64,000 bases of DNA from Alphaproteobacteria bacterium (GTDB taxonomy: Bacteria > Pseudomonadota > Alphaproteobacteria > ATCC43930 > CGMCC-115725), in contig JAFAYW010000107.1 in assembly GCA_019240125.1 (NCBI GenBank), positions 62,001-126,000 of the forward strand, given 5' to 3'. The notes under the pieces were generated by a model, which saw only the letters and a program-made list of their open reading frames with translations, made no database searches and was not told the origin of the DNA. Made by a program: the position numbers and the translations under genes. This document shows positions 30,989 to 41,305 of the stretch, piece after piece. The first letter of the stretch is position 1, and each line of letters opens with the position of its first letter.

Positions 30989-31006
30989 TGTAAGGTTATC
31001 TTGACA
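30989..31006. promoter_or_regulatory. PpsR/CrtJ operator (TGT-N12-ACA) upstream of bchF
   Basis: An exact match to the PpsR/CrtJ consensus: TGT at 30989-30991, 12 bases, ACA at 31004-31006. It lies 73 bp upstream of the GTG start of bchF. On the minus strand TTGTCA over its edge could be a -35 box with GATAAG as a weak -10, so binding would occlude the superoperon promoter. Confidence 0.7.
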
Positions 31007-31262: not shown

Positions 31263-32141
31263 ATGGGACAGAGCGCGATGGAACCAAGCGCCGAGACCGC
31301 GATGTCAGCGCTGACGCTACCGGGCCTTAACGCATCTTCGCACCTGCGCGCGCCCACGGAGGGCCTATCCGCCGCGGCGCTGGCGCGTCTCGCGCACATC
31401 ATCGACCAGCGGGTCATCCCGCGGCTGTTGATCAATCATGCCTCGCAGGCTGTCGCAGCAGCGGCAACGCGCCAGATATCGGCGCAGGACATCATCGACT
31501 TCACGACGATGTTGTTGGCTCACGACCTGGCATCCGTGCTCGCACGCGTCGCCGAACTGCGGGATCACGGCCGCTCGGTCGACGCGATCTATCTGGATCT
31601 CCTGGGCCCCAGTGCCGACTATCTCGGCGAATTGTGGAGCGACGATAACGTTAATTTCGTTGATGTGACGGTTGCCATAGGCGTCCTGCAGCAGGTCGTG
31701 AGGGAGTTGCGGCCGGCGTTTCGCGGCACCCACGAACAGCCTCCGAATGGCGGCCGCGCGCTTCTCGGTTCCGCCGCGCACGAGCAGCATACGTTCGGTC
31801 TGTTCGTCATCGCGGAGTTCTTTCATCGTGCCGGTTGGGCGGTGTGGTACGAGCCTGCCGCCGATGCCGGATCAATCGCGCGGATCGCGAGCCGGGAGTC
31901 GTTTACGCTTGTCGGTCTGTCCGCCAGCTCCGATCGGATGATCGACGCCCTGACCGAAGAAATCCGGACGGTGCGGCGTGTGTCGCGGAACCCCAACGTC
32001 AAAGTCATGGTCGGCGGCCGGGTGTTCAGCGAGCATCCGGAACTGGTCGCGGCGGTTGGCGCCGATACCACGGCGCCGGACGCGCGGGCCGCCGAACTGC
32101 AGGCTCGCACGCTGATCACCTTGGCCGCCGCGGGCATGTAA
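31263..32141 (+). CDS. AerR/PpaA-type regulator with SCHIC (B12-binding-like) domain
   Basis: A 292-residue protein preceded by an AAGGGGAC ribosome site. After a variable N-terminus it has the SCHIC order: a helical part 'LLAHDLASVLARVAELRDHG' to 'YLGELWSDDNVNFVDVTVAI', then the Rossmann-like half with 'AAHEQHTFGLFVIAEFFHRA', 'SASSDRMIDALTEEI' and 'VMVGGRVFSEHPELVAAVGA'. In Rhodobacter, AerR/PpaA binds a cobalamin or haem and modulates the PpsR/CrtJ repressor. It lies directly before the first ppsR, the classical arrangement. The His in the 'HEQH' region is a cofactor-ligand candidate. Confidence 0.88.
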   Translation: MGQSAMEPSAETAMSALTLPGLNASSHLRAPTEGLSAAALARLAHIIDQRVIPRLLINHASQAVAAAATRQISAQDIIDFTTMLLAHDLASVLARVAELRDHGRSVDAIYLDLLGPSADYLGELWSDDNVNFVDVTVAIGVLQQVVRELRPAFRGTHEQPPNGGRALLGSAAHEQHTFGLFVIAEFFHRAGWAVWYEPAADAGSIARIASRESFTLVGLSASSDRMIDALTEEIRTVRRVSRNPNVKVMVGGRVFSEHPELVAAVGADTTAPDARAAELQARTLITLAAAGM

Positions 32142-32199: not shown

Positions 32200-33630
32200 G
32201 TGACGGATGCTGCCGCCGCTGCCCTGGCTCTTGGCGACCTCGGCGCGGAGGCCGCTGCCTCGATCATCGCCGTGACGACCGACATCAGCATGATTGTCGA
32301 CGGTGCTGGCGTAATCAAACGGCTTGCCGTGTCAAATCACAACCTGCGCGACGATCTCTTACCGAGTCCGGAAGCCTGGGTCGGCAAGCCCTGGGTTGAC
32401 ACGGTGACCGTGGAGAGCCGGCCCAAGATCGAGGCGCTGCTGGCGGAGGCCGATGCCACTGCGGCGCAGCGCTGGCGCCAGGTTAATCACCCGGGCCGCA
32501 GCGGGGCGGATGTCCCGGTGCTTTACGCGGCCGTTCGGGTCGCCGCCGAGGGGCCGGTCCTGGCCTTTGGGCGCGATCTGCGGATCATCGCCTCGCTGCA
32601 GCAGCGGCTTGTCGACGCCCAACAATCGAGCGAGCGCGATTACTCGCGCCTGCGCCATCTGGAGACACGCTATCGGGTGCTGTTCCGCATGGCATCCGAC
32701 CCGGTGCTGATCGTCGACGCGGCATCACGCAAGATTTCCGAGGCCAATGCCGCGGCCGAGCGGCTTTTCGATCAGGGTGGCAAGGGGCTTGTCGGCCGCC
32801 TTTTCCCGCTCAGCTTCGACAGCCAGAGCACCGGCGCGATCCTCGCGCTGTTCGCCGAATTGCGGGCGACCGGGCAGGCGCGCGACGTGACAGTCCGCAT
32901 GATCGGCGCGGAACATCCGGCGACCATCAGTGCCTCGTTGTTGCGGCTTGAGAATGCCTCGCTGTTTCTCGTGCGTCTCGCCTTGCCTGCCGCTGACGGC
33001 GCCGCGCCGGCCGGTGACGCGCCCGCCGCCAGCCTGCAGAGCTTTGCCGAAAGCGCGCCCGACGGATTTGTCGTAGCCCGCCACGACGGCACGATCCTCA
33101 CCGCCAACGCGACGTTTCTCGGGCTCATCCAGGCCGTTAGCGAGGAGCAGGTTCGCGGGCAGCCGCTCGAACGCTGGCTGGGCGCTCCGGGGATCGACTT
33201 TCATGTGCTGATCACCAACCTGCGCCAGCGCGGATCGGTCAACCTGTTTCCGACGACACTGCAAAGCGAGCATGGCACCAGTCTCGCCGTCGAGGTGTCG
33301 GCGGTGTCGGTGATGAACGCCGGCCAGCAATGCTTTGGCTTCTCGATACGCAATGTCGAACAGCGCTTGCGTCCCAAACCGCCACCGGATCGCGACTTGC
33401 CGCGATCGGTGAACGAAATGGTCGAACTGGTTGGTCGCGTACCGCTGAAGGATCTGGTGCGCGAGGCGGTGGATGTGATCGAGCGACTGTGCATCGAGGC
33501 GGCCTTGCGGCTGACCGGCGACAACCGTGCCTCCGCCGCCGAAATCCTCGGGCTCAGTCGCCAGAGCCTGTATGTCAAACTGCGCCGTTTCGGCCTTGCT
33601 GACTCCGAAACCGACCGGTTGGAGCATTAG
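32200..33630 (+). CDS. ppsR: Photosynthesis repressor PpsR/CrtJ, cysteine-containing copy
   Basis: A 476-residue regulator starting at a GTG after GAGGGG. Domains run N-terminal PAS-like, a coiled 'ERDYSRLRHLETRYRVLFRM' linker, a PAS domain (about 165-270), a second PAS (about 290-400), and a Fis-type helix-turn-helix at the end ('AAEILGLSRQSLYVKLRRFG'). A cysteine at residue 431 ('IERLCIEAALRL') is at the position known to be redox-active in CrtJ. PpsR represses bch, crt and puc genes aerobically by binding TGT-N12-ACA. It is followed 1 bp later by bchG. Confidence 0.95.
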   Translation: MTDAAAAALALGDLGAEAAASIIAVTTDISMIVDGAGVIKRLAVSNHNLRDDLLPSPEAWVGKPWVDTVTVESRPKIEALLAEADATAAQRWRQVNHPGRSGADVPVLYAAVRVAAEGPVLAFGRDLRIIASLQQRLVDAQQSSERDYSRLRHLETRYRVLFRMASDPVLIVDAASRKISEANAAAERLFDQGGKGLVGRLFPLSFDSQSTGAILALFAELRATGQARDVTVRMIGAEHPATISASLLRLENASLFLVRLALPAADGAAPAGDAPAASLQSFAESAPDGFVVARHDGTILTANATFLGLIQAVSEEQVRGQPLERWLGAPGIDFHVLITNLRQRGSVNLFPTTLQSEHGTSLAVEVSAVSVMNAGQQCFGFSIRNVEQRLRPKPPPDRDLPRSVNEMVELVGRVPLKDLVREAVDVIERLCIEAALRLTGDNRASAAEILGLSRQSLYVKLRRFGLADSETDRLEH

Positions 33631-33631
33631 T

Positions 33632-34522
33632 ATGCGTACCACCCGGCTGGATGCCAGTGCCGCCCTCGAATTGCTCAAGCCGCTGACCTGGTTTGCCCCG
33701 ATGTGGGCATTCGGGTGCGGCGTGGTGTCTTCCGGGCATCTGCGGGATGGCGGCTGGCTCCTGGCTGCTGCGGGGCTTGTTCTCAGCGGGCCGCTCGTCT
33801 GCGGGTCAAGTCAGGCGGTCAACGACTGGTTCGACCGGCATGTCGATGCGATCAACGAACCGCAGCGGCCGATCCCGTCCGGGCGCCTGCCCGGGCGCTG
33901 GGGCCTTTATATCGCAATCGGCTGGACCGCGCTGTCGGTACTGGTCGCCAGCACGCTCGGCCGCTGGGGCTTTGCCGCCGGTATCGCCGGCCTCGCATTT
34001 GCCTGGGCCTACAGCGCGCCGCCTTTCCGCCTCAAACGCAACGGCTGGTACGGCAACACCGCTGTCGCGGCCTGTTATGAGGGGCTGCCATGGGTTACCG
34101 GCGCGGCGGTGATGGCGGCGGCCGCGCCCGCGTGGCAGGTGCTCCTGCTGGCGGCGCTCTACAGTGCCGGCGCACACGGCATCATGACCCTGAACGACTT
34201 CAAATCCGTTGATGGCGATCGCCAGAGCGCGATTCGCACATTGCCGGTACAACTCGGCGTCGCACGAGCCAGCCGCGTCGCATGTGGGGTCATGATCGTC
34301 CCGCAGCTCGTGGTAGTGGCGTTGCTCGCGGCCTGGGGATGCCTGCTGAGCGCCGGCGTGATTGCCCTGCTGCTGATCGCGCAGCTGGCTTTGATGCAGC
34401 GCTTTCTGCGCGATCCTCGCGAGCGGGCTCCCTGGTACAACGCGACCGGCACCAGCCTCTACGTCATCGGCATGCTGGTGGCCGCCGTCGCACTGCAATC
34501 CTTTGGTGGAGCGGTGGCATGA
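33632..34522 (+). CDS. bchG: Bacteriochlorophyll synthase (geranylgeranyltransferase)
   Basis: The ATG at 33632 is chosen because it follows GGAG at good spacing and gives the expected 296 residues. UbiA-family prenyltransferase with multiple membrane helices; the Mg-diphosphate motifs are 'QAVNDWFDRHVDAINEPQRP' and 'LNDFKSVDGDRQSAIRTLP'. It esterifies bacteriochlorophyllide a with geranylgeranyl diphosphate; BchP then reduces the tail to phytyl. It overlaps the next gene by 4 bases. Confidence 0.95.
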   Translation: MRTTRLDASAALELLKPLTWFAPMWAFGCGVVSSGHLRDGGWLLAAAGLVLSGPLVCGSSQAVNDWFDRHVDAINEPQRPIPSGRLPGRWGLYIAIGWTALSVLVASTLGRWGFAAGIAGLAFAWAYSAPPFRLKRNGWYGNTAVAACYEGLPWVTGAAVMAAAAPAWQVLLLAALYSAGAHGIMTLNDFKSVDGDRQSAIRTLPVQLGVARASRVACGVMIVPQLVVVALLAAWGCLLSAGVIALLLIAQLALMQRFLRDPRERAPWYNATGTSLYVIGMLVAAVALQSFGGAVA

Positions 34523-35898
34523 ACGGCAATGCGATTGGCTGGACCGGGATCGTCCGGCTCGGCCTCATTCAAGCCGGTATCGGGGCGATCGTCGTACTGG
34601 CGACGTCGACAATGAACCGCATCATGGTCGTGGAACTGGCTCTTCCGGCGGTATTGCCGGGACTGTTGGTCGCCCTGCACTACGTATTTCAGCTGTTGCG
34701 GCCGCGTATGGGCTACGGCTCGGACGTTGGCGGCCGGCGGGTGCCATGGATCATCGGCGGCATCGCGGTGCTTGCAATTGGCGGCGTCGGTGCCGCCGCG
34801 GCGACCGCGTTGATGGCATCCCGGCCGATGCTCGGCATTGCCGCGGCGATCGTCGCCTATGCGGTAATCGGCGCCGGCGTTTCGGCTGCCGGCACCACGC
34901 TGCTGGTCCTACTGGCGCAGCGGGTGGCGCCAGCGCGGCGGGCCGCGGCGGCGACGATCGTCTGGCTGATGATGATCGCCGGGATTGGAGTGACGGCGAC
35001 TGTGGTGGGGCGTCTTCTCGACCCGTATTCGCCGTTCCGACTGATCCAGGTGACGGCGGAAGTCGCCGGCATGGTGGTGGTGCTGTCACTGCTGGCGGTG
35101 TGGGGCATCGAAGGCCGGTCCTCTGACCGGCAGCGTGCGGTGACATCGGTCAAAAAAGATGCCGAGGCCGGGTTTATGGAGGCCCTGCGACAGGTCTGGA
35201 CCGAGCCGCAAGCGCGCAACTTTGCCATTTTTGTGTTTGTCGCCATGCTCGCCTACAGCGCGCAGGAGTTGATCCTCGAACCGTTTGCCGGTGCCGTGTT
35301 TGGTCTGACGCCGGGCCAGTCGACCGGGTTGACCGGTATGCAGCATGGCGGCGTGCTGCTTGGAATGGCGGTTGTCGCGGTTGCTGGCGCCAATTTGCCG
35401 GGGCGCCTGGGTTCGTTACGGCTATGGACGATTGGCGGCTGCGCTGCATCGAGCATCGTATTGCTGGCGCTTGCCATCGGTGGATTTGCGGGACCGAGCT
35501 GGCCGTTGCGTCCGATCGTCTTCGCGCTCGGGGTTGCCAATGGCGCCTTCGCGGTGTCGGCGATCGGCTCGATGATGCAATTGGCCCATTCCGGCCGCGC
35601 CTCGCGCGAAGGTGTGCGGATGGGTTTGTGGGGCGCGGCGCAGGCGCTGGCTTTTGCCTGCGGTGGTCTCATCAGCACGACGGCGAGCGATATTGCGCAT
35701 CGCCTGCTGGGTTCGCCGGTGACGGCCTACGCCGCCGTTTTCGTCGGCGAAGCCGTGCTGTTCCTGTTGGCGGCGGGTCAAGCGGCGCGTGTTTTCGGCG
35801 CGGCGTCGCGCGATACCGGCGAGCAATCTTCATCGCCATTGCGCGACGCGATGCCCGAGCCGATGTCCGAGGCGATGCCCGAGCCGCGGGGCGCTTAA
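34519..35898 (+). CDS. PucC-family (BCD) bacteriochlorophyll-linked carrier
   Basis: A 459-residue, 12-helix membrane protein of the same family as LhaA, in the usual place between bchG and bchP (the position of 'bch2' or orf428 in other clusters). Signatures include 'TMNRIMVVELALPAVLPGLL', 'GYGSDVGGRRVPWIIGG' and 'REGVRMGLWGAAQALAFACG'. It is thought to help light-harvesting complex assembly or pigment handling. The C-terminal 25 residues are a Met/Pro/Glu repeat-like tail. It is ATGA-coupled to bchG. Confidence 0.9.
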   Translation: MNGNAIGWTGIVRLGLIQAGIGAIVVLATSTMNRIMVVELALPAVLPGLLVALHYVFQLLRPRMGYGSDVGGRRVPWIIGGIAVLAIGGVGAAAATALMASRPMLGIAAAIVAYAVIGAGVSAAGTTLLVLLAQRVAPARRAAAATIVWLMMIAGIGVTATVVGRLLDPYSPFRLIQVTAEVAGMVVVLSLLAVWGIEGRSSDRQRAVTSVKKDAEAGFMEALRQVWTEPQARNFAIFVFVAMLAYSAQELILEPFAGAVFGLTPGQSTGLTGMQHGGVLLGMAVVAVAGANLPGRLGSLRLWTIGGCAASSIVLLALAIGGFAGPSWPLRPIVFALGVANGAFAVSAIGSMMQLAHSGRASREGVRMGLWGAAQALAFACGGLISTTASDIAHRLLGSPVTAYAAVFVGEAVLFLLAAGQAARVFGAASRDTGEQSSSPLRDAMPEPMSEAMPEPRGA

Positions 35899-35903
35899 CC
35901 CTG

Positions 35904-37097
35904 ATGTCGCGCCCCGAAACCTACGACGCAGTCGTTGTTGGTGGCGGCCCCGCCGGCGCCACCGCCGCGGCCGATCTGGCCAGGGCCGGCCGTTCGGTAT
36001 TGCTCCTCGACCGGGGCGGCCGCATCAAGCCCTGCGGTGGTGCCATACCGCCGCGCCTGGTCGAGGAATTCGCCATCCCGTTATCGCTCCTGGTAGCGCG
36101 TGTCACGGCGGCGCGGATCGTCTCGCCGGCCGAGCGCGAGGTTGCGATGCCGATCCACGGCGGCTTTGTCGGCATGGTCGACCGCGAAAGCTTCGACGAG
36201 TGGCTACGCGCGCGCGCGGCTCGCGACGGCGCGCATCGCTTGACCGGCACGTTCCAGGGTATGACGCACGACGCTGACGGTGTCTCCATACGGATCGGCG
36301 GCTCCGGACGTCAGGGTGCGCTGTCCCGCATCGTCAGGGCACGGGCTGTCATCGGAGCCGATGGCGCTCGGTCGGTGGTGGCGCGCCACACCCTTCCCGA
36401 TGCCGAAAACATACCGTTTGTCTTTGCCTACCACGAGATCGTTCACTCTCCGACCGCCTCCGATTGCGATTTCGACGGCACACGCTGCGACGTCTATTAT
36501 CAGGGTCGAATGTCGCCCGATTTTTACGGGTGGGTCTTCCCACACGGGGCGACGACCAGCGTCGGTGTCGGAACGGCGCTGAAAGGCTTTTCGCTGCGCC
36601 AGGCGACCGATGCATTACGCCGGCGCGCCGGGCTCGATCGGGCCGAGACCGTCCGCGGCGAAGGGGCTCCCATCCCGCTGCGCCCGCTCAAGCGCTGGGA
36701 TAATGGCCGCGACACGATCCTCGCCGGTGATGCCGCCGGCGTGGTCGCCCCGGCCTCCGGCGAAGGCATCTATTACGCGATGACCGGTGGGCGCCTCGCC
36801 GCCGAGGCCGTCGACGCGTTCTGCGCCAGCGGTGATCCGCGATCCCTGGCCATGGCGCGCACGCGCTTTATGCGCCGGCATGGGGCAGTCTTCTGGGTTC
36901 TCGGTTTGATGCAGCAATTCTGGTACCGCGATGACAAGCGCCGTGAACGCTTTGTCAGCATCTGTCGCGACCGCGACGTCCAGCGACTGACATGGGATGC
37001 ATATATGAACAAGGCATTGGTTCGCGCCCACCCTGCCGCGCATGGTCGAATCTTCCTAAAGAACATGGCCCACTTGATGGGCCTCGCGCCGATTTAA
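35904..37097 (+). CDS. bchP: Geranylgeranyl bacteriochlorophyll reductase
   Basis: The ATG at 35904, 5 bp after the carrier's stop, gives 397 residues. The FAD-binding motif 'DAVVVGGGPAGATAAADLAR' is at the N-terminus, followed by family-specific 'RIKPCGGAIPPRLVEEF', 'VIGADGARSVVAR' and 'ILAGDAAGVVAPASGEGIYY'. It reduces the geranylgeranyl tail to phytyl in three NADPH steps. Confidence 0.95.
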   Translation: MSRPETYDAVVVGGGPAGATAAADLARAGRSVLLLDRGGRIKPCGGAIPPRLVEEFAIPLSLLVARVTAARIVSPAEREVAMPIHGGFVGMVDRESFDEWLRARAARDGAHRLTGTFQGMTHDADGVSIRIGGSGRQGALSRIVRARAVIGADGARSVVARHTLPDAENIPFVFAYHEIVHSPTASDCDFDGTRCDVYYQGRMSPDFYGWVFPHGATTSVGVGTALKGFSLRQATDALRRRAGLDRAETVRGEGAPIPLRPLKRWDNGRDTILAGDAAGVVAPASGEGIYYAMTGGRLAAEAVDAFCASGDPRSLAMARTRFMRRHGAVFWVLGLMQQFWYRDDKRRERFVSICRDRDVQRLTWDAYMNKALVRAHPAAHGRIFLKNMAHLMGLAPI

Positions 37098-37180
37098 GCC
37101 GCCTCTCCGTCACCCCTGGTCGAGAGGATCGGCAAAAACCTCCCTTGCGTTTGTATCGCTTAACCATGTCGAGGATCATT

Positions 37181-37567
37181 ATGCGTGGTTGTTCTACCGC
37201 CGTTGTCTTTGTCGGGAGCCTGTCCATCTGGCTGGCGGGACTGTCGCCTGGCGTTCTCGCCGCCGGCGATGCCGCGCACGGTGCGCAAGTATTCAAGCAG
37301 TGTCTGATCTGCCATACCAATGAAGCCGGAAAGAACAAGATCGGGCCAAGCCTGTTTGGCATCATCGGCCGGCCTTCGGCAAGCGTGCCAAACTTCAATT
37401 ACTCGCCGGCCATGAAAGCATTCAACAAGGTTTGGACAGACGAATTACTGAAAGAATATGAACCTGACCCGCAGAAGATGGTCCCAGGAACCAAGATGAG
37501 CTTCCCGGGACTGAAAAATCCGCAGGACGTCGATGACGTGATCGCTTATCTGAACACGCTGAAATGA
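37181..37567 (+). CDS. Class I cytochrome c (cytochrome c2 type)
   Basis: The start at 37181 is chosen over an ATG at 37166 because GAGG lies at proper distance before it. The 128-residue precursor has a signal peptide, then a single haem site 'QCLICHTNEAGKNKIGPSLF' and the methionine ligand in 'GTKMSFPGLKNPQDVDDVIA'. This is a soluble periplasmic cytochrome c2-like electron carrier that could re-reduce the photosynthetic reaction centre from the bc1 complex. It lies between bchP and the second ppsR. Confidence 0.92.
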   Translation: MRGCSTAVVFVGSLSIWLAGLSPGVLAAGDAAHGAQVFKQCLICHTNEAGKNKIGPSLFGIIGRPSASVPNFNYSPAMKAFNKVWTDELLKEYEPDPQKMVPGTKMSFPGLKNPQDVDDVIAYLNTLK

Positions 37568-37771: not shown

Positions 37772-39118
37772 GTGTCAATCATACCTGTCAACATCGCTCA
37801 GCCCGACGTCACCCTGAAACTCGATCTCGCCGGTGTGATCCGCAGCGCTACCCTCGGAGATAAAATCTCCGACGCGAACCTGCAGTCGTGGGTTGGCCGG
37901 AATTGGGCTGAGACGGTCGTGGATATTGGCGCGGATAAGGTGCGTCGAATGGTATGGGACGCCCGCAACAGTGGCGTCTCGGGTTTTCGACAGGTCACGC
38001 AACGCTTTCCGAGCGGTCTGGAATTGCCGATCGAGTACACGACAATCCGGCTCGGGGATAATTCGGGCTTGATCGCGGTGGGCAAAAGCCTGCAGGCGGT
38101 GGCCGAGCTGCAATCGCGCCTGATCGCGGCGCAGCAGGCGATGGAGCGGGATTACTGGAAGTTTCGTGAGGTCGAGACGCGTTATCGGCTGCTCTTCGAC
38201 GCCTCGAACGAGGCGGTGCTGCTGATGCGCGCCGCCGATCACGTCATCATCGAAGCCAACCCCGCCGCCCTGCGATCGCTTGGCGCCGGAGTGGCAAACG
38301 GCCAGTTCCTGCAGGAGATTGACCCGGCGGAGCGAGAGGCCTTTCGCGCCGTCCTGTTGCGTGCGCGGGAGCAAGGCAGGGCCCCCGGCATGGTGGTTCA
38401 TCTTGGGCCGAATCTCGATCCCTGGTTGTTGCGTGTTTCCACGATGATCGCGGAACCTGGGCCGCTGTTCCTGTTGCAGTTGACCCCGGCCGGAATCGCG
38501 GCCCCGATCGAGCCGTCAACGGACCCGTTTGCCGACCCCGCGTTGATCGCGGAATTGCCGGAAGGCCTCGTGGTGATCGATCTCGACGGCAACATACGGC
38601 GCGCCAATAATGCTTTTGTCGAACTGATCCAGGCGAACGGCGAAGGCGGCATCGTCGGTGAGAAGCTGGAACGCTGGCTGCGCGCCCCCGGTGCCGACCT
38701 GACGGTCATTCTGGCAAATGTGCGCCGCTATAATGTGCTGCGGCAGTTTGCGACGACGATCTACGATGAACTGGACGCACCGCTCAATGTGGTGATTGCG
38801 GCTGCAATGCAGGGCGAAGGCGACAACCGTTCAGTCGCGCTGCTGTTTCATCGCGGCGAGCAGCCATCCGGCCATTCGCAGGGCGCCGCCCTTGACGGCA
38901 TCACCTTGGAGGTTGGATCGGCGCCGCTGCGGATTCTCCTGCAGGAAACGGTGGGACGGCTGGAGCGCTACTACATCGAGGCTGCGCTTGAAAAAGCCAG
39001 CGGTAACAGAACGGCGTCGGCCGAATTGCTCGGCCTCAGCCGACAAAGCCTCTATGCCAAATTGAACCGGTATGGTTTAGATGGAGGGGCGCGAACAACG
39101 CAACAGCGCGACGAATAA
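37772..39118 (+). CDS. ppsR: Second PpsR-family regulator, cysteine-free
   Basis: A 448-residue protein starting at GTG (37772) after GGGAG. It has the same plan as the other PpsR: N-terminal PAS-like region, 'MERDYWKFREVETRYRLLFD' linker, two PAS domains and a C-terminal Fis-type helix-turn-helix with nearly identical recognition helix ('LLGLSRQSLYAKLNRYG'). The CrtJ-type cysteine is Tyr at residue 401, and no cysteine occurs anywhere in the protein. It lies 15 bp before the bacteriophytochrome. In Rhodopseudomonas and Bradyrhizobium a PpsR in this place is antagonised by light-activated BphP. Confidence 0.93.
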   Translation: MSIIPVNIAQPDVTLKLDLAGVIRSATLGDKISDANLQSWVGRNWAETVVDIGADKVRRMVWDARNSGVSGFRQVTQRFPSGLELPIEYTTIRLGDNSGLIAVGKSLQAVAELQSRLIAAQQAMERDYWKFREVETRYRLLFDASNEAVLLMRAADHVIIEANPAALRSLGAGVANGQFLQEIDPAEREAFRAVLLRAREQGRAPGMVVHLGPNLDPWLLRVSTMIAEPGPLFLLQLTPAGIAAPIEPSTDPFADPALIAELPEGLVVIDLDGNIRRANNAFVELIQANGEGGIVGEKLERWLRAPGADLTVILANVRRYNVLRQFATTIYDELDAPLNVVIAAAMQGEGDNRSVALLFHRGEQPSGHSQGAALDGITLEVGSAPLRILLQETVGRLERYYIEAALEKASGNRTASAELLGLSRQSLYAKLNRYGLDGGARTTQQRDE

Positions 39119-39133
39119 ATTTGGGGAGGATAG

Positions 39134-41305
39134 GTGCCTGTCCTCAAGCCCGCCTTCGGGCAAGCCGACCTATCGAATTGCGAGCGCGAGCAGATCCATA
39201 TCGCCGGGTCGATACAGCCGCATGGCGTATTACTTGTTGTTCGAGAACCCGATTTTATTATCGTCCAGGCGAGCGCCAATACTTCAGAATTCCTCGGTGT
39301 CCGCTTTGATGTTTTAGGCCAACCCCTGGCGCGCATCGAAGGCGATCTGATGGCGCGGATCACTCCCTTGCTCCACGCGCCCCTGGCCGAAATACCGGCG
39401 GTTGTCCGGTGTCGTCTCGGCAGCAGCCAGCTGCAATATGACGGGACCGTCCATCGCCCGCCGGCCGGTGGGCTGATTATCGAGCTTGAGCGCGCCGGCA
39501 CGCGCAAGACCGCGCCCAACGACGTCGAAGAGGCGCTGCAGACGATCCTCGCGGCCCCGTCGCTGCGTGCCTTGTGCGATGAGGCGGCCGCGATCTTCAA
39601 GAGCGTGACCGGTTACGATCGGGTCATGATCTACCGGTTCGACGATGACGGGCACGGGGAGGTGTTCTCCGAACGGCGCGAACCAGAACTCGAGCCCTAT
39701 CTGGGCAATCGCTACCCGGCGTCCGACATCCCGCAGATCGCCCGTCGGCTCTACGAGCGCAACCGGGTGCGGATGATCGCCGATGTTGGCTACGGTCCCG
39801 TCCCTCTGCGACCCGTATTATCGCCAATCAGTGGCGAGGATCTCGATCTTTCGCTCTGCGTGCTGCGGAGCATGTCGCCAATCCACGTCCAGTACCTGAA
39901 AAATATGGGGGTTGCCGCGACCCTGGTGATGTCGCTGGTTGTCGGCAAACGTCTGTGGGGTCTGGTCGCCTGTCACCACTATGTCCCGCGGATCGTTCAC
40001 TTCGAGATCCGCGCTGTCTGCGAGCTATTGGCGGAAAGCGTGTCGACGCGGATTGCCGCCCTGGAAAGCTTTCTGCGCGCCCAGTCCGAACTGGCGGCTC
40101 GCCGATTGGAACATCGCCTCGTACAGGCGGTTGCCCGTGACGGCGATTGGAAGATCGCGCTGTTCGACCGCTCCAATTCGCTTTTGCAACCGCTCGGCGC
40201 CGCCGGCGCGGCCCTCTTGTTCGAGGGCGAATTGCTCACTCTGGGGGAGGTGCCGGGGACTCAGCAACTTCGGGACATTGCCGCGTGGCTCGATCGGTCG
40301 CCAAAGCGGCCATTGATCGCCACGAACTCGCTTGGTATCGACATGCCGGAATTCGCCGCGATCGCCGATGTCGCCAGCGGCCTATTGGCCGCGCCCCTGT
40401 CGCGTACGCCGGGCGATTATCTCATCTGGTTCCGCCCCGAACAGGTGCGCACTGTCACCTGGGGTGGCGATCCGAACAAGCCGTTCATCGGCGGTGACAA
40501 TCCAGCCGAGCTATCGCCCCGCCGATCGTTTGCGCAATGGCATCAATTGGTCGAGGGAACGTCAGAACCGTGGACCGAAGCCGATCTCAGCGCGGGGAAC
40601 CTGATCAGCGAGACGATCATTGATGTTGTCATGCAATTCCGCTCCGTGCGGATGCTGATCGCGCAGGATCAGCTCGATCAGATCAGCAAGCAGGTCGAGC
40701 TTTCGGATCAGCCGGTGCTCATCGCGGATGTTCAGGGGCGTGTCCTGCTGATGAACAACCTGCTTAAGGTTTTACTGGCCAACACAAATCCGCTGCCGCA
40801 GTCGCTCGATGAGCTGGCGGGCTGCTTTGAGGAGCCCGGCGCGCTTGAGGGCCACTTTGGCGAACTTCTCGCGGAGCGCCGTTCGTGGCGCGGCGAGGTC
40901 CGCGTTGCCGCTGTATCCGGCGCGTCGATCCCGTTACTGATACGCGCGGACCCGGTTATCGCCTGGCCTAATCGCGTACTCGGCATGACCGTTCTTTTTA
41001 CCGATCTCACCGAACGCAAGGCGGCGGAGGCAGCGCGGCGGCGCTTTCAAGAAGAGCTTGTCGACGAGCATCGCCTGGCCACCTCGCGTCTGGATACCCG
41101 CGCCGATCTGATTTATCGGACGCTGCTGACGTCAGTGATCGAGAATGCGCAGCTCGCCGCACTGGAAATTTCCGACGAACTCGATGTGACCAAGATGCCC
41201 GAGATGCTTGATAGCGTTCGTGCATCGGCCCAGCGGGCAGCCGAGATCCTCGAACACCTCGTCAAGCATGCCTCTCCCGGTCTCTCAAACGGCGAGCGCT
41301 CGTAG
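39134..41305 (+). CDS. Bacteriophytochrome without a kinase domain
   Basis: A 723-residue protein starting at GTG (39134) after GGGGAGGATA. Order: PAS (about 1-110) with the biliverdin-binding Cys16 ('LSNCEREQIHIAGSIQPHG'), GAF (about 125-310) with 'NRYPASDIPQIARRLYERN', PHY (about 320-500) with the 'SPRRSFAQWHQLV' tongue, a further PAS (about 515-640), and a short helical C-terminus. There are no N, G1 or G2 boxes of a histidine-kinase ATPase domain. It resembles the BphP1 type that acts by direct light-dependent binding to PpsR. It absorbs far-red and near-infrared light and likely relieves repression by the adjacent PpsR. Confidence 0.93.
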   Translation: MPVLKPAFGQADLSNCEREQIHIAGSIQPHGVLLVVREPDFIIVQASANTSEFLGVRFDVLGQPLARIEGDLMARITPLLHAPLAEIPAVVRCRLGSSQLQYDGTVHRPPAGGLIIELERAGTRKTAPNDVEEALQTILAAPSLRALCDEAAAIFKSVTGYDRVMIYRFDDDGHGEVFSERREPELEPYLGNRYPASDIPQIARRLYERNRVRMIADVGYGPVPLRPVLSPISGEDLDLSLCVLRSMSPIHVQYLKNMGVAATLVMSLVVGKRLWGLVACHHYVPRIVHFEIRAVCELLAESVSTRIAALESFLRAQSELAARRLEHRLVQAVARDGDWKIALFDRSNSLLQPLGAAGAALLFEGELLTLGEVPGTQQLRDIAAWLDRSPKRPLIATNSLGIDMPEFAAIADVASGLLAAPLSRTPGDYLIWFRPEQVRTVTWGGDPNKPFIGGDNPAELSPRRSFAQWHQLVEGTSEPWTEADLSAGNLISETIIDVVMQFRSVRMLIAQDQLDQISKQVELSDQPVLIADVQGRVLLMNNLLKVLLANTNPLPQSLDELAGCFEEPGALEGHFGELLAERRSWRGEVRVAAVSGASIPLLIRADPVIAWPNRVLGMTVLFTDLTERKAAEAARRRFQEELVDEHRLATSRLDTRADLIYRTLLTSVIENAQLAALEISDELDVTKMPEMLDSVRASAQRAAEILEHLVKHASPGLSNGERS

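Follow-up and report, generated by a model that had tools for sequence, protein, structure and literature searches.

The window, here the whole stretch of 64,000 nucleotides of DNA that was analysed, encodes a cysteine-free PpsR/CrtJ-family repressor (PpsR2) and, directly downstream, a kinase-less bacteriophytochrome (BphP1). We consider it about 90% probable, with the mechanism assigned by homology, that the two constitute a standard BphP1-PpsR2 far-red switch of the kind known from Rhodopseudomonas palustris and photosynthetic Bradyrhizobium. In many purple bacteria, it is normal for this pair to lack both the cysteine and the kinase. The analysis adds one more genome for a known far-red photosynthesis switch, and the counts reported below place the loss of the redox cysteine in most of the PpsR2 clade, not in this genome alone. 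Table 1 lists the features.

Table 1. Features of the BphP1-PpsR2 locus and its surroundings (positions in the window)
Feature	Position	Strand	Description
B12-binding protein, AerR/PpaA antirepressor-like	31263..32141	+	upstream of ppsR1; PF02310 50.3 bits, PF02607 24.4 bits
ppsR1	32200..33630	+	redox-type PpsR, Cys378 and Cys431
bchG, MFS transporter, bchP, cycA	33527..37567	+	between ppsR1 and ppsR2; MFS by sequence and position
ppsR2	37772..39118	+	PpsR/CrtJ-family repressor of the PpsR2 clade, GTG start, 448 aa, 0 Cys
Trp129 codon, PpsR2 Q-helix	38156..38158	+	PpsR2-specific invariant residue; candidate BphP1 contact, by inference
Tyr401 codon of PpsR2	38972..38974	+	CrtJ/PpsR1 redox-Cys column (CrtJ-Cys420), from alignments
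bphP1	39134..41305	+	bacteriophytochrome PAS-GAF-PHY-PAS-HOS, GTG start, 723 aa, biliverdin Cys16, kinase-less
HOS-type helical output, residues 626-713	41009..41272	+	model secondary structure and column conservation in 81 proteins

On the + strand, the genes follow in the order AerR-like B12-binding gene, ppsR1, bchG, MFS, bchP, cycA, ppsR2, and bphP. Divergent bchF and bchH form the left flank, and the right flank comprises cbbR, the RuBisCO large subunit gene, and then bchI, bchD, bchO, a crtI-family gene, and crtB. The MFS gene between bchG and bchP had no NCBIfam match, and the AerR name was given on the basis of position and domain. The location of the AerR-like protein directly upstream of ppsR1 suggests that light may also act on PpsR1 through B12, as a second input. 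Only 15 bases separate ppsR2 from bphP1, and Shine-Dalgarno-like sequences of the GGGAG/GGGGAGG type precede both start codons.

The assignment of PpsR2 to the repressor family was supported by a TIGR02040 match of 414.7 bits (curated cutoff, 275.4) over residues 9-436, which is full length, and by a Pfam match to HTH_8. The protein is composed of N-PAS (13-106), the Q-helix (107-144), PAS1, PAS2, and a Fis-type HTH (386-436). The AlphaFold model (pLDDT 88) displays N-PAS, the helix at 107-144, two more PAS folds, and the HTH; the closest folds to it were PpsR structures, with 4hh2 in first place followed by 4hh3 and 4l9g. The earlier note had described this second PpsR as cysteine-free, with Tyr401 at the CrtJ-type cysteine position, and both descriptions hold. 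The gene contains no cysteine codon, and the HTH-column cysteine of a redox-type PpsR (CrtJ Cys420) is absent from PpsR2 in the alignment, where Tyr401 stands opposite Cys431 of the window's PpsR1. By analogy with characterized members of the family, we infer that PpsR2 would have no thiol-based redox response.

For the survey of relatives, we used 80 BphP proteins, 53-63% identical, from a scan of public genome contigs. Of the 80 loci, 79 have a PpsR2-type gene immediately upstream of the one for BphP1, and the remaining contig stops 0.6 kb upstream. Cysteines were counted in 77 near-full-length PpsR2 proteins, including that of the window: 24 had none, 29 had one, 18 had two, and six had three. 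The observed frequency of cysteine-free proteins (31%) is close to the 34% expected from a Poisson distribution with the family mean cysteine content, so the total absence of cysteine in PpsR2 needs no special explanation. The redox column was most commonly occupied by Tyr (44 of 77), with Cys in 17 and other residues in 16, whereas 68 of 72 PpsR1 proteins have Cys there. By these alignments, the loss of the cysteine at the conserved redox column is real, but it is shared by most of the clade.

A quick tree (LG+G4) of the 77 PpsR2 and 72 PpsR1 proteins separated the PpsR2 clade, which includes the window's protein, from PpsR1 with a support of 100. Cys in the PpsR2 redox column requires at least five changes on this tree, and the Cys-bearing proteins belong mainly to one Acetobacteraceae/Roseomonadaceae group, with additional scattered cases. 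The possibility that PpsR2 keeps its cysteine only where PpsR1 is missing was rejected, since a strong PpsR1-type match (E<=1.2e-98) is present in 67 of the 77 genomes carrying the pair. In four PpsR1-type proteins (L150, L051, L156, and L171), the redox column holds Ser or Tyr, and in their genomes PpsR2 has Phe or Tyr at this position; hence, neither repressor carries the HTH cysteine there.

The family of Bradyrhizobium sp. BTAi1 was searched separately, across 391 genomes. Forty-five had a PpsR2-type match (E<=1e-140), and 44 of these were examined. All 44 have Tyr in the redox column, and 31 are cysteine-free. The PpsR2 of the studied strain BTAi1 has Tyr in the column and is itself without cysteine, and PpsR2 of Bradyrhizobium and R. 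palustris was already reported to lack the HTH redox cysteine (PMC4452267; for R. palustris also PMC6899989). The redox-cysteine loss in PpsR2 is thus established background and not a novelty, and the view that a completely removed redox sensor sets the window's pair apart from known ones is not sustained.

A different reading is that PpsR2 senses oxygen or redox without cysteine, through haem, in mixed complexes with PpsR1, or through a partner, for example the AerR-like B12 protein. Aerobic repression persists in an HTH Cys mutant of Rubrivivax PpsR (PMC4452267), which indicates no tight link between the presence of the cysteine and the response to redox, and the AerR-like B12 protein and PpsR1 are both encoded nearby. 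However, PMC4452267, citing Jaubert 2004, describes light control as the dedicated role of Bradyrhizobium PpsR2, and we regard a non-cysteine redox route as unlikely.

The Pfam matches in BphP1 were PAS_2, GAF, PHY, and, weakly, PAS; neither HisKA nor HATPase matched at E<=10. The profile search for a hidden kinase domain, set beforehand as a test of the earlier note, likewise returned none in 45 relatives at E<=0.1. The AlphaFold model (pLDDT 80) places three helices past the PAS domain, at residues 626-650, 656-680, and 688-713, so the proposal that the protein ends in a PAS domain and short helices with no ATPase domain was correct. The proposed biliverdin attachment site also stood, as Cys16, one of seven cysteines in the protein, is invariant in all 81 aligned proteins. 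The other invariant positions are Asp198, His251, Pro462-Arg463, and Ser465-Phe466; together with Cys16, they correspond to the biliverdin Cys, the GAF Asp/His, and the PRxSF tongue.

Within the HOS segment, the NAQLAALEI motif (671-679) is near-invariant over the 81 aligned proteins. No conserved phosphate-accepting His was found among them in helix 656-680, and the only partly conserved His residues of the segment are at 646, 708, and 712. BphP1 therefore falls outside the type 1 histidine-kinase phytochromes (HisKA/HWE plus HATPase, with a phospho-His) and has the composition of the RpBphP1 type, with a PAS-GAF-PHY core, PAS9 plus a helical HOS, and no kinase. The conserved HOS motif and the missing His and kinase agree with an output that would act by contact, not phosphotransfer.

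We consider it highly improbable that BphP1 is a histidine-kinase phytochrome that has been truncated or is decaying. PMC6899989 describes HOS as homologous to the dimerisation domain of kinases, which would suit such decay; the isolated HOS segment gave weak unrelated matches only against PDB sequences, so this kinship is taken from that paper. Nevertheless, the kinase-less HOS-type C terminus is common to the relatives of BphP1, and most of the 80 have a post-PAS C terminus of about 86-109 residues with near-invariant motifs. Moreover, the bphP1 frame is open, and it is followed by an intact cbbR on the opposite strand. A recent kinase loss in BphP1 is refuted by this conserved architecture.

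The probability that the missing PpsR2 cysteines are a sequencing or assembly error is negligible: the draft genome is fragmented into 372 contigs with 6.5% estimated contamination, but Tyr401 and the absence of Cys recur in many genomes, complete ones included, and the window's composition fits that of other sampled contigs of the same genome (r about 0.99). In the genome family of 39, a BphP1-type gene (E<=1e-100) occurs in the window's genome only, the one exception being a 43% match within a frame of 841 aa. The photosynthesis cluster may have been acquired or rarely retained. Due to the absence of the BphP1-PpsR2 pair elsewhere in the family, the switch could be a recent acquisition, and for this host its regulation is a prediction. 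A second phytochrome, with an open frame of 874 aa (G000:C4:14607-15125, L002), is also present in the genome.

In the BphP1-PpsR2 switch proposed here, and by analogy with the R. palustris system, BphP1 would bind biliverdin at Cys16 and would have a Pfr ground state. Far-red light would convert Pfr to Pr and open the HOS four-helix bundle, and the freed helices would bind PpsR2, probably at the Q-helix/PAS1 region, in a far-red-dependent complex. The captured PpsR2 would then leave TGT-N12-ACA operators, and photosynthesis genes would be derepressed. Signalling would involve no phosphotransfer, and redox control would be left to the second repressor, PpsR1, which keeps its HTH cysteine. The window contains 10 TGT-N12-ACA sites where 4.1 would be expected, and one of 100 shuffles reached 10. 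Sites in or near photosynthesis genes are located at 30989, 52490, 57451, 57673, and 62718. A light-only contact switch like BphP1-PpsR2 had been suggested by the earlier note; the 59% identity to RpBphP1, the conserved helical output, and the pairing in the surveyed loci support it well by homology, whereas the contrast it drew with known pairs does not stand.

A lead on partner specificity came from the comparison of PpsR2 and PpsR1 columns in 60 non-redundant proteins of each. Trp129 of the Q-helix is present in 60 of 60 PpsR2 proteins and in four of 60 PpsR1 proteins, in which the column is mostly Ala or Ser; all 44 Bradyrhizobium-family PpsR2 proteins also have it. The mean top-residue frequency of the Q-helix is higher in PpsR2 (0.82 versus 0.75 in PpsR1), and that of the HTH is higher in PpsR1 (0.90 versus 0.71 in PpsR2). 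We tentatively propose, as a possibility, that the Q-helix sets the repressor choice of BphP1, with Trp129 of PpsR2 touching the NAQLAALEI surface of the HOS helix. Trp129 and the HOS motif offer concrete mutation targets for how BphP1 distinguishes PpsR2 from PpsR1. QPAS1 is a PpsR2 fragment made up of the Q-linker and PAS1. The same question of discrimination bears on BphP1-QPAS1 optogenetic tools, which pair BphP1 with QPAS1 (PMC13058837).

Among known systems, XccBphP is likewise a kinase-less PAS-GAF-PHY-PAS phytochrome, but the PAS is its last domain, no HOS helices follow, and its function is different (PMC6899989). Rhodobacter CrtJ/PpsR belongs to the same repressor family and fold as the window's PpsR2 (TIGR02040; 4hh2), although Rhodobacter PpsR has the redox Cys420/424 that PpsR2 lacks. 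The nearest solved homologue of BphP1 is RpBphP1 (4gw9, 5oy5), with 59-62% identity over residues 5-631, a moderate level. RpBphP1 is a PAS9-HOS phytochrome whose HOS helices are named hJ', hJ, and hK, and its complex with RpPpsR2 is a light switch of the proposed kind (PMC6899989). R. palustris has the same gene pair and the same kinase-less PAS-GAF-PHY-PAS-HOS order (4gw9; PMC6899989), and the three C-terminal helices of the window's BphP1 match the hJ', hJ, and hK layout. Wild strains of R. palustris have a PpsR2 without the redox Cys, as in the window (PMC6899989). In CGA009, a laboratory strain, PpsR2 has the change R428C. A count of residues suggests that this position corresponds to an invariant HTH Arg, R424 in the window's protein, rather than to the CrtJ-Cys column; the 'restored' redox Cys of CGA009 would thus not be equivalent to the CrtJ cysteine. 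Bradyrhizobium PpsR1 is reported as an activator (PMC10569730, PMC3899966). Photosynthetic strains ORS278 and BTAi1 share the order ppsR1-bchG-MFS-bchP-cycA-ppsR2-bphP with the window (PMC10569730), and the make-up of the BTAi1 PpsR2, Tyr in the column and zero Cys, is that of the window's protein.
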